Positions 47,833 through 53,019 of a stretch of 53,019 bases of DNA are shown here, one piece after another; the first letter of the stretch is position 1; each line of letters begins with the position of its first letter. Location of the stretch: assembly GCA_030526195.1 (NCBI GenBank), contig JAUNDG010000017.1:1-53019 (forward strand), written 5' to 3'. The notes under the pieces were generated by a model that saw only the letters and a program-made list of their open reading frames with translations, ran no database searches and had not been told where the DNA came from. A program made the translations under genes and the position numbers. Source of the stretch: Lachnospiraceae bacterium (lineage in GTDB: Bacteria > Bacillota > Clostridia > Lachnospirales > Lachnospiraceae).

Positions 47833-47877
47833 AGAGACTGTGATGACCCCTAAGGTCTTTCACAGTCTCTTTTTTTC
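47833..47877. terminator. Terminator between gldA and the radical SAM gene
   Basis: Perfect 11-bp stem AGAGACTGTGA / TCACAGTCTCT followed by TTTTTTT on the plus strand. The radical SAM gene ends at 47876 on the other strand, so one hairpin probably serves both convergent genes. Confidence 0.85.
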
Positions 47878-48985
47878 ACTTCCCCTTCAGCACATCCCGC
47901 ATGCAGATCCTCGGCTCCATCCGATCAAAATCCCAGGAATGAAATGAATCTCCGGCGCAATACCGGTAATCGGCGCAGTCCGCACATTTGCCCGTTTTGC
48001 GGAAATCCGTCCGGTAAATGGCAAACCCATTTTCCCAAATCTCTTTGAAATGGTGCTCCCGGATATTCCCCTCGACGAGCTCCGGCCGCCGGGGCAGATC
48101 CAGACAGCTCACGATGTCGCCGTTGACGGTGATCGACGCAGTGTACACCCCCGCATTGCAGAGAAAATACCAGGGGCGCACCTCCCGCTCCCGATCAACC
48201 CCAAGAAAATGGCTGCAGCCGTAGCCCACCGTCATGGCGCCTTTCGTCCGATGCGCCGCGATAAAATCAAACATCCCCCGGTACTCCTCTGGCGTCAGCA
48301 AAAGCTCGGGATGCTCCAGCGCCCGGCCCATGGGCTCCATGTTGATGACACGCCAGGACCGCACCCCTGTTTTTGAAAATGAGTCGTACATAGCCTCCAG
48401 GGTTTTGAAATTTCGATGATGGACCACCGTGGTGATCTGCACATGTTCAAAACCCACATCCAGCAGGTTTTGAATCCCGGTCATAGTCCGCTGATAACTG
48501 CCGGGGCTTTGACGGAACCATTCATGATCCGCCTCAAGACCATCCACGCTCACCGACACCGTCCGCATGCCCGTAGCCTTCAAAAGCCGCGCCTTCTCCG
48601 GGGTGATCAAGGTGGCATTGCTGGTCATGCCCCAGGAAAAACCGAGACGATGCGCCGCGTCCATGATGTCAAAAAAGTCATCCCGCAAAAGCGGCTCGCC
48701 GCCGGTTACACAAAGACGCAGGCGTGAAATATCAAAATCCTGTTTGATGCCCTTCAAAAATGCCACGATTTCCTCATAGCTTAGCCGATCCGCCCGGTCA
48801 CTGGCATCACACAGACTCCCGCAATGAAGACAATGCTCGTTGCAACGCTGCGTCATTTCAATAAAAAGAGTCCTGAGGATCGGATGTGGCCGCAGCGTCT
48901 CCTCCCGGAATGCCGCCAGCTGCTCCAGATGCTGTTTCTTCTGACGATTTGTCAGACCTGAATTTTTCCCGACTCTTCCTAACAT
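47876..48985 (-). CDS. Radical SAM/SPASM enzyme, probable peptide maturase
   Basis: A 369-residue radical SAM protein. The SAM-cluster motif is CNEHCLHC (C48, C52, C55), followed by GGEPLLRDDF and SVDGLEADHEWFR. The C-terminal third is a SPASM/twitch region with cysteines in FLCNAGVYTASITVNGDIVSCLDLP, CADCADYRYCAGD and a final PRICMRD, enough for auxiliary [4Fe-4S] clusters. Such enzymes commonly install C-C or C-S crosslinks in ribosomal peptides. No RRE-like N-terminal domain is evident. ATG 48985 follows CGGAGGA. It lies 12 bases after the DUF805 protein with VYGPP repeats, which is its likely substrate. Quinohemoprotein-type or other substrates cannot be excluded. Confidence 0.88.
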   Translation of the reverse strand: MLGRVGKNSGLTNRQKKQHLEQLAAFREETLRPHPILRTLFIEMTQRCNEHCLHCGSLCDASDRADRLSYEEIVAFLKGIKQDFDISRLRLCVTGGEPLLRDDFFDIMDAAHRLGFSWGMTSNATLITPEKARLLKATGMRTVSVSVDGLEADHEWFRQSPGSYQRTMTGIQNLLDVGFEHVQITTVVHHRNFKTLEAMYDSFSKTGVRSWRVINMEPMGRALEHPELLLTPEEYRGMFDFIAAHRTKGAMTVGYGCSHFLGVDREREVRPWYFLCNAGVYTASITVNGDIVSCLDLPRRPELVEGNIREHHFKEIWENGFAIYRTDFRKTGKCADCADYRYCAGDSFHSWDFDRMEPRICMRDVLKGK

Positions 48986-48997
48986 CGTATCCTCCGT

Positions 48998-49579
48998 TTA
49001 CTGGGCATTTTCCTCGAACCATTCAGGCGGCCCGTAGACCTCCAACGGCTCATTTTCGGAAGGATCAAAGGTCACGTCCTCGTCAGACAGATCCGTATCC
49101 TCCTCAAACCATTCCGGCGGGCCGTAAACATCCGGCTCCACATTTTCGGACGGATCGTAATCCTCCCAGTCCGGCGGGCCATACACAACCTCGACAAAAT
49201 TGTCCGTCGGATAAAATGCCACGCTCGCCGTTTCCACCGTGCACATCACCAGCAGCACCGCTGCCCCGATTCCCAGCGCCAGAAGCAGGAAAACCCAGGC
49301 ACCGCGCCGGCCCGTGGCATGAAGCCGCCGCACCGTAAGAGCAATGCCCGGCAGGATGGCCAGCACCAGATACGCCGTCAGCGCGATCATCAGCACCGAC
49401 CCCAGCTTCTCCGGCACGTTATTGCCCCACCAGAGAAAATAAAACATCACATCGAGCAGCCCCAAAATGAGATGAAACACAAGCGGCCACAGATATTCGC
49501 CCAGGCTCGCCGTTCCTTTATAATCAAATGTATGCGTCCACATCCGGCCGATGGACCGGAAGAACCCCGTCTTTTCCAT
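48998..49579 (-). CDS. DUF805 membrane protein with three C-terminal VYGPP repeats
   Basis: A 193-residue protein. Residues 1-115 are a DUF805 membrane domain: three hydrophobic helices (about 31-50, 60-82, 95-113), GTASLGEYLWPLVF near the start and LPGIALTVRRLHATGRRG before the last helix. The tail is acidic and repetitive: VYGPP(D/E)W at 132-138, 151-157 and 181-187, with DPSEN at 142-146 and 172-176. The Tyr, Trp and Phe residues in a constant context look like modification sites. ATG 49579 lies 6 bases after GGGAGGTG. The radical SAM/SPASM gene follows by 12 bases. Substrate-maturase pairing is inferred from this context. Confidence 0.85.
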   Translation of the reverse strand: MEKTGFFRSIGRMWTHTFDYKGTASLGEYLWPLVFHLILGLLDVMFYFLWWGNNVPEKLGSVLMIALTAYLVLAILPGIALTVRRLHATGRRGAWVFLLLALGIGAAVLLVMCTVETASVAFYPTDNFVEVVYGPPDWEDYDPSENVEPDVYGPPEWFEEDTDLSDEDVTFDPSENEPLEVYGPPEWFEENAQ

Positions 49580-49618
49580 AGCGCACCTCCCGACACGATC
49601 AATAGCTGCTATCATTGC

Positions 49619-51909: not shown

Positions 51910-53019
51910 TCACTTAATAATGGCGCCAGTGTGAGCCACATACAGATCCTGAACGCTCGGGATGCTGCCAAGACCGGCGATCTGAGCATCAACGCTTTCG
52001 AAAGCACCTGAGGCTTCGAACAGTGACTTCCAGGAATCTTCTTCTGCACCGGCCATATCGTTGTTGGCATGGTCACCGGCAACGACCATCAGCGGACGAA
52101 GGACAACCTTTGTGTAACCGGCTTCTTTAACAGCTTCGATCACTTCTTCGCAGGCTGTGCCTTCCGGTTCGCCTTCAACTGTGCCGATGAAAGCATTGTC
52201 GAAACCAAGTCCCTTCATGGCTGTCTGCATCTGGCTGTAGCTGACTTTAGCTGTGTGAGATGTGCCATGGCCAAGGAAGACATAGGCTGTGCCATCTTCT
52301 TTAGCAGCCGCGGCGTCAGCATAACCGGCGTCTTCATTTGTGGCTTCAACAACAGCCTTGGCAACGGCCATCTTGTCATCGTTGATCACGGTTGCATCGT
52401 TACCGACTTCACCAAGAAGCGGAGCGGCAATACCGATGGATTCGAATTTTTCATCATATTTTTCAATAGCGGCGCACATTTCATCATATTCAGCACCGGC
52501 CATCAGATGTGTCGGCTGAACGATCAGATTCTTAACGCCATTGTCAACGGCACGTTCCAGGGCCTGATCCATGTTGTCGATGAATTCGTTGTCACGAGCC
52601 TGAACATGGTTGATGATGATCTGAGCTGTGAAGGCACGTCTGACAGACCATTCCGGATAAGCTTCCTGAAGAGCATCTTCGATACCCTTGATGTCAGCAA
52701 CACGGCTGTCATTGAAAGAAGTACCAAAGCTGACGACCAGAAGTTCATTTTCGCCGATATCATCAGCGTTGCGCGGATCATCCTTGGAAGCATCGCCTGT
52801 ATCACGGCCGAAGTAATCCGGATCGGCTTCTTCGCCTTCAACCAGTTCCTTCTGAGCATCTGTCAGAGCATCCCAGGCTGCCTTGGCTTCAGCGCACTGA
52901 GCATCTGTTTCGTCTGTTCTTTCCTGAACGTAAATAGCATCGATGAGTTCAGCGACGTGATTGGCAGCTGCCTGATCATCAATAGCTTCTTCAACAGCCT
53001 CTTCCACGGCTTCTTCGAC
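51910..53019 (-). CDS. Exported CbiK-type sirohydrochlorin cobaltochelatase (5' end outside window)
   Basis: The frame is open to the window end, so the N-terminus is missing. About 260 residues at the C-terminus match CbiK-type class II chelatases: LLVVSFGTSFNDSRVADIKGIEDALQEAYP at the start, the metal-site histidines in VQPTHLMAGAEYDEM and VFLGHGTSHTAKVSYSQMQ, and LRPLMVVAGDHANNDMAG. CbiK inserts cobalt into sirohydrochlorin, and some homologues act outside the cytosol on haem-like molecules. The N-terminal part here is acidic (EEAVEEA repeats), followed by AKAAWDALTDAQKELVEG, a repeat type common in Gram-positive surface proteins. This makes an exported enzyme likely, but no signal peptide can be seen in the window. 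Confidence 0.85.
   Translation of the reverse strand, partial: VEEAVEEAVEEAIDDQAAANHVAELIDAIYVQERTDETDAQCAEAKAAWDALTDAQKELVEGEEADPDYFGRDTGDASKDDPRNADDIGENELLVVSFGTSFNDSRVADIKGIEDALQEAYPEWSVRRAFTAQIIINHVQARDNEFIDNMDQALERAVDNGVKNLIVQPTHLMAGAEYDEMCAAIEKYDEKFESIGIAAPLLGEVGNDATVINDDKMAVAKAVVEATNEDAGYADAAAAKEDGTAYVFLGHGTSHTAKVSYSQMQTAMKGLGFDNAFIGTVEGEPEGTACEEVIEAVKEAGYTKVVLRPLMVVAGDHANNDMAGAEEDSWKSLFEASGAFESVDAQIAGLGSIPSVQDLYVAHTGAIIK

Follow-up and report, generated by a model that had tools for sequence, protein, structure and literature searches.

Why a gene for a radical SAM/SPASM enzyme should adjoin one for a membrane protein with a repeated VYGPP tail is the question raised by this locus. 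We analysed a 53,019-nucleotide stretch of Lachnospiraceae DNA (the window), together with related loci in other genomes.

The enzyme and its membrane-anchored partner

The enzyme, of 369 aa and belonging to the TIGR04133 branch, is encoded at 47876..48985 on the reverse strand, and is the proposed maturase. Its proposed substrate is a DUF805 membrane protein of 193 aa with an acidic C-terminal tail, encoded at 48998..49579 on the same strand; the spacing of 12 bases given in an earlier note on this DNA is thereby upheld. Pfam profiles detected Radical_SAM (83 bits) and SPASM (34.5 bits) domains in the enzyme, in agreement with the predicted structure model, whose fold is common to SPASM enzymes generally. 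The CxxxCxxC motif corresponds to C48/C52/C55, and six cysteines of the SPASM region (C276, C294, C334, C337, C343 and C361) were invariant across 44 sequences, confirming both sets of cysteines reported earlier. The canonical SPASM motif has one further cysteine (CX3C), which is not present in the window enzyme. Elsewhere in the window, an ORF at 51910-53007 (reverse strand) resembled by eye a CbiK-type cobalt chelatase.

The partner scored 49.7 bits against PF05656 (DUF805), above the Pfam gathering score of 25.7, and matched no NCBIfam family at E 1, TIGR04134 included. The mechanical ORF opens at 49615; position 49579 (MEKTGFF...) was taken as the best start, with GGGAGGTG directly ahead of it. 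Translation placed VYGPP at residues 132, 151 and 181, as the earlier note had described from the valine positions, with (D/E)W after each site. All three sites are on the reverse strand. Site 1 (49172..49186; matched by the codon pattern at 49173-49186, which omits the final wobble base) is followed by DWEDYDPSEN, site 2 (49115..49129; match 49116-49129) by EWFEE, and site 3 (49025..49039; match 49026-49039) by EWFEENAQ and the stop codon.

Hydropathy analysis gave three membrane stretches, two overlapping windows having been merged, and the tail (residues 127-205 of the 205-aa ORF) contains 25 acidic and 0 basic residues. The description of three helices and an acidic tail therefore stood. 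Four basic residues occur in the loop ahead of the last membrane stretch. By the positive-inside rule, basic loops stay on the cytoplasmic side of the membrane, so the acidic tail, having no basic residues, is probably outside the cell, in keeping with the surface display suggested previously. The window partner has no Nif11 or similar leader.

Recurrence of the pairing

The enzyme (E 1e-60 or better) was found in 7/61 genomes of a sample of relatives, the window's genome counted, and all seven belonged to one genus. Every one of them had a neighbouring same-strand YGPP ORF, carried by five lipoprotein-like proteins (3-6 YG[PA]P sites), one double zinc ribbon (1 site) and the DUF805 protein of the window. 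Clusters, defined as at least two occurrences of GTNTAYGGNCCNCC in a 300-base span of the same strand, were present in 6/7 enzyme-bearing relatives vs 0/54 of the others.

A similar pattern was seen in a class sample of 293 genomes, which shares the window's genome with the sample of relatives and in which 12 genomes passed the E 1e-80 threshold for the enzyme. In all 12 an adjacent ORF contained YG[PV]P; one such ORF has YGVP and another (L147) is a fragment. With an open frame required, clustered VYGPP occurred in 8/12 genomes with the enzyme vs 0/281 without it (Fisher p = 4e-13, or 4e-12 if G187 is counted and the comparison becomes 8/12 vs 1/281), both p-values being too small because the genomes in the sample are related. 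G187 was the sole enzyme-negative genome with a cluster by coordinates; no open frame of at least 40 aa covers its four VYGPP matches (267 bases apart). Genomes G088, G180 and G251 each contained two or more VYGPP matches on one strand but no cluster.

When the seven enzymes were used as queries in a scan of named genomes, at least 562 relatives were confirmed, of which the best 80, drawn from Lachnospiraceae, Oscillospiraceae, Ruminococcus flavefaciens and other Clostridia, were analysed further. YGPP ORFs of at least 25 codons were counted, some being cut by contig ends. Among these best 80 of at least 562 loci, 72 had a same-strand YGPP ORF no more than 1.5 kb upstream of the enzyme; the median gap up to where the enzyme match starts was 24.5 bases, and 16 loci had two or more YGPP ORFs within 3.5 kb. 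The recurrence that the earlier note had called for is thus evident in both the class sample and the named genomes, and the case it had named as refuting, VYGPP tails common without the enzyme, was absent from the 281 enzyme-negative genomes in open frame.

The eight loci without an adjoining YGPP comprise L075, which ends at a contig edge, L103, with a zinc-ribbon-like protein bearing VYGSP, and six others; among the eight genomes concerned, the VYGPP codon pattern had no match in G063, G067 and G068. A gene judged by eye to be DJ-1/PfpI-like lay upstream of the enzyme in 6/80 loci (L037, L039, L044, L053, L056 and L063). Five of these six genomes encode a VYGPP-repeat membrane protein, DUF805-like by eye, at another place, and two of the five also hold one-site zinc-ribbon proteins. 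At five of the six loci a common membrane protein gene lies ahead of the DJ-1/PfpI-like gene.

Further short lipoprotein-like YGPP ORFs (L213, L225) were seen in the genome of L095, R. flavefaciens FD-1, on contigs that differ from the contig of the dockerin-YGPP gene L221. Since these ORFs are on contigs away from L221, one enzyme may serve distant targets.

The motif is constant and its carriers vary

The 101 YGPP ORFs of the 80 loci (best 80 of at least 562) contained 312 YGPP tetrads, preceded by V at 202, L at 41 and I at 36. The constant core is [V/L/I]-Y-G-P-P, the second proline sometimes being replaced, mostly by M, A or I. YGPP was not found among 908 YG tetrads of other ORFs of at least 150 aa in the same 80 loci, and the reversed control PPGY occurred 0 or 1 times per locus. 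At the level of bare codons, TAYGGNCCNCC had 29 matches in the window's own genome vs 56 for the reversed control, and in most class-sample genomes the control was at least as common as single pattern matches, so single matches are attributed to chance. On inspection of the 29 places, multiple YGPP sites were confined to the window partner; the other YGPP ORFs of this genome have one site each, and the one in L137 is, as judged by eye, part of a RuvB-like ATP-binding loop.

In a scan of 126 carrier proteins (the window partner, 100 from the 80 loci and 25 from other loci, many of them close kin), 35 matched DUF805, 31 Dockerin_1 and 5 Zn_Ribbon_1 at E 0.01. A crude rule found a lipobox in 42/125 YGPP-type proteins. 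The carriers thus differ widely, from DUF805 membrane proteins to lipoproteins, dockerin proteins and zinc ribbons. Small zinc-ribbon proteins with one CVYGPPP/CIYGPPP between two ribbons were observed in L010 (2147-2452, reverse strand), L120, L133 and L135, with no obvious signal peptide. The zinc-ribbon proteins are likely a cytosolic class of target.

Comparison of downstream ORFs of at least 50 aa near the enzyme end, available in 64 of the 80 loci (best 80 of at least 562), revealed none generally common that might act as a PlpY/RRE partner. The widest group comprised 13 loci of one species group (including L031-L036, L038, L040, L045, L047, L049 and L050), in which a Cys-rich ORF, of 58 aa in L058, lies directly downstream.

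Placement of the enzyme among known families

TIGR04133 was by far the best NCBIfam match of the window enzyme, at 286.5 bits, below the curated cut-off of 425 bits. The score against TIGR04103, which we tentatively take from its name to be the PlpX splicease family, was 125.6 bits (cut-off 725), lower than those of the AhbD, TIGR04053 and NirJ2 models. A sulfatase maturase model was not among the best 25 NCBIfam matches listed. Across 398 genomes of the phylum, TIGR04103 was over its cut-off in none and reached E 1e-60 or better in 2.

Three TIGR04133-type enzymes were taken from plasmid records (Phocaeicola, Parabacteroides and Treponema; 32-36% identity; two so annotated), and their adjoining lipoproteins carry CEYGTP, CEYGSP and CYGMP. 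At L155, which bridges the two groups, the partner passes the TIGR04134 cut-off (52 vs 39.8 bits) and holds MYGPPP. In trees that included few families and no anSME row, the window enzyme and the three plasmid enzymes fell in a TIGR04133/YGPP clade of 18 rows (support 100/99), whose sister group was a TIGR04103-like clade (7 rows, 99/98). Support for this sisterhood was 92/88, or 92/89 with AhbD-model rows added, and we regard it as moderate. AU tests retained the alternatives YGPP+mftC (p 0.093), YGPP+nirJ-like (p 0.057) and TIGR04103+nirJ-like (p 0.087), and rejected TIGR04103+mftC (p 0.013).

The author of the earlier note knew of no described system of exactly this form. This holds in part: in NCBIfam, enzymes of TIGR04133 are already linked to lipoproteins of TIGR04134, but no stated function was found for the pair. 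Open-licence PMC literature yielded no mention of TIGR04133 or TIGR04134, nor of YGPP together with radical SAM, and the term-matched open-licence PMC papers no mention of VYGPP. The NCBIfam pair resembles ours in being the best NCBIfam match, in forming one clade with it (100/99) and in having lipoproteins with YG[TSM]P; it differs in that the window enzyme scores below 425 bits and its partner is a three-site DUF805 protein, not a TIGR04134 lipoprotein.

Substrates beside TIGR04103-like enzymes

A Nif11 precursor lies directly upstream of the Nostoc TIGR04103 enzyme and has the C-terminus ALYGLPPELF; the window tail reads VYGPPEWFEE. Downstream is a 71-aa neighbour where PlpY would be expected from position and size, and a second Nif11 and an NHLP precursor near the enzyme are without YG. 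The DUF1843 neighbours in Azospirillum and Aureibacter contain PYGPA and PYGAG, and also LYAAG, MYAAS and MYMAT, so that some sister-clade substrates have Y-A or Y-M in place of Y-G. No clear X-Y-G site was found in the neighbours of the Tropicibacter and L191 enzymes.

In Agathobacter rectalis, an unannotated frame of 71 codons ending in GPVMYGTGVRM (L190, 2695-2907, forward strand) immediately precedes the gene of a radical SAM enzyme that falls in the same clade as the Nostoc one; from its sequence the frame is a candidate spliceotide precursor. Beside another TIGR04103-like enzyme, the ORF at L192 (2560-3507, reverse strand) combines an Inhibitor_I42 domain (chagasin-type, 37 bits) with following Y-x-[AP]-P repeats, mostly KYAAP; this is another pairing of a maturase with repeats, here headed by a protease-inhibitor domain.

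Proposed activity and alternative explanations

Sequence alone establishes that the two genes are paired, that the pairing recurs, that the motif is conserved on changing carriers and where the enzyme falls in the trees. We propose that the enzyme and its DUF805 partner form a maturase-substrate cassette. In this scheme, the cytosolic radical SAM/SPASM enzyme would recognise, within the acidic tail, sites of the form [V/L/I]-Tyr-Gly-Pro-Pro and excise tyramine at X-Tyr-Gly, with a loss of 135.08 Da per site. Part of the tyrosine would be removed and a ketoamide left in the backbone at X, and the tail, once outside the cell, would bear up to three ketoamides. That the enzyme modifies the YGPP sites is very probable. 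Tyramine excision is the probable chemistry of the YGPP family, and is favoured because the nearest clade is TIGR04103, tentatively PlpX spliceases, and the site is of the X-Y-G type. A two-gene cassette with splicing of the tail is the best overall explanation, one that the balance of the evidence modestly favours.

Published accounts of PlpX-type spliceases describe the excision of tyramine from X-Tyr-Gly to give a ketoamide, splicing without a leader and inside other proteins, and the prediction of 939 further splicease systems (PMC10533398, PMC11002830, PMC10373908). A review of spliceases names IPR026482. The window pair shares with PlpX/PlpY an X-Tyr-Gly site (three VYG), the Radical SAM and SPASM domains and a possible sister clade (92/88), and LYGLPPELF forms the C-terminus of the Nostoc precursor encoded next to a TIGR04103 enzyme. 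In contrast, the window enzyme is below the TIGR04103 cut-off (125.6 vs 725 bits), and its substrate is a membrane-anchored, acidic repeat tail with no leader, for which the chemistry is a proposal. PlpX works with PlpY, whereas the YGPP loci have no generally common downstream gene.

Crosslinking at tyrosine would convert the tail instead into a chain of small rings, with -2 Da per site, by joining Val and Tyr as in mycofactocin, or Tyr and a nearby Trp or Phe. Radical SAM/SPASM enzymes do so in other systems. In mycofactocin, the modified site is at the C-terminus of the short substrate peptide MftA. There a radical SAM/SPASM enzyme acts on adjacent Val and Tyr, oxidatively decarboxylating the tyrosine and joining the valine to it (PMC8326336). 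The YGPP+mftC tree also passes the AU test (p 0.093), but mftC forms a separate clade from the YGPP enzymes and is not the nearest one. Trp occurs two residues past YGPP at all three window sites, and W, F or Y at +4 to +7 in 206/312 YGPP sites; the other 106/312 have no aromatic there, and the constant residues after Tyr are Gly and Pro. The constant aromatic context claimed in the earlier note is therefore not supported, nor is the aromatic crosslinking derived from it, and such a crosslink is doubtful as a general rule. We consider crosslinking in any form unlikely.

Alteration of Tyr, Gly or Pro by epimerisation, oxidation or cleavage, with neither crosslink nor splice, would suit a constant core of just Y-G-P and the varied chemistry of enzymes of this fold. 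No enzyme of that type is nearest in the trees, in which few families were included, and this alternative appears decidedly improbable. The tail might also serve for binding or as a spacer and have nothing to do with the enzyme, their adjacency reflecting inherited gene order, as the DJ-1/PfpI-like gene (by eye) adjoining the enzyme in 6/80 loci (best 80 of at least 562) could suggest. Against this, the motif is common to unrelated carriers beside the enzyme, five of the six DJ-1-type genomes have a VYGPP-repeat membrane protein elsewhere, and open-frame clusters occur in 0/281 enzyme-negative genomes; we consider an unrelated tail highly improbable.

Possible role and significance

If tyramine is excised as proposed, the ketoamides could act as a surface protease trap, a suggestion that we put forward only tentatively. 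Spliceotides are reported to be protease inhibitors (PMC10373908, PMC11117315), and it has been suggested that a dockerin-borne serpin of R. flavefaciens protects the cellulosome from extracellular proteolysis (PMC5301203). The YGPP proteins resemble cellulosomal serpins in bearing dockerins (Dockerin_1 in 31/126), and by analogy there is a hint that ketoamides could reach the cellulosome on the dockerin-bearing members; no serpin domain is among the families listed for them, and their inhibitory role is hypothetical. The Inhibitor_I42 domain joined to repeats at L192, next to a TIGR04103-like enzyme, is a further hint in this direction. A purely extracellular trap fits poorly, since the zinc-ribbon targets look cytosolic. 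A broader form of the idea, in our judgement somewhat unlikely, is that a leaderless, partner-free splicease makes ketoamides at multiple sites before export on widespread surface and cellulosome VYGPP proteins, which would serve as anchored protease-trap combs paralleling serpins.

If the proposal is true, radical SAM backbone editing would also decorate membrane proteins, lipoproteins and cellulosome components, in hosts that are rumen and gut Clostridia, named R. flavefaciens strains included. The TIGR04133/TIGR04134 pair, for which no function was found in open-licence PMC literature, would gain a testable motif and mass shift. R. flavefaciens FD-1 is credited with 118 dockerin proteins with unknown regions (PMC2930009), and for some of these the proposal would offer a possible role.
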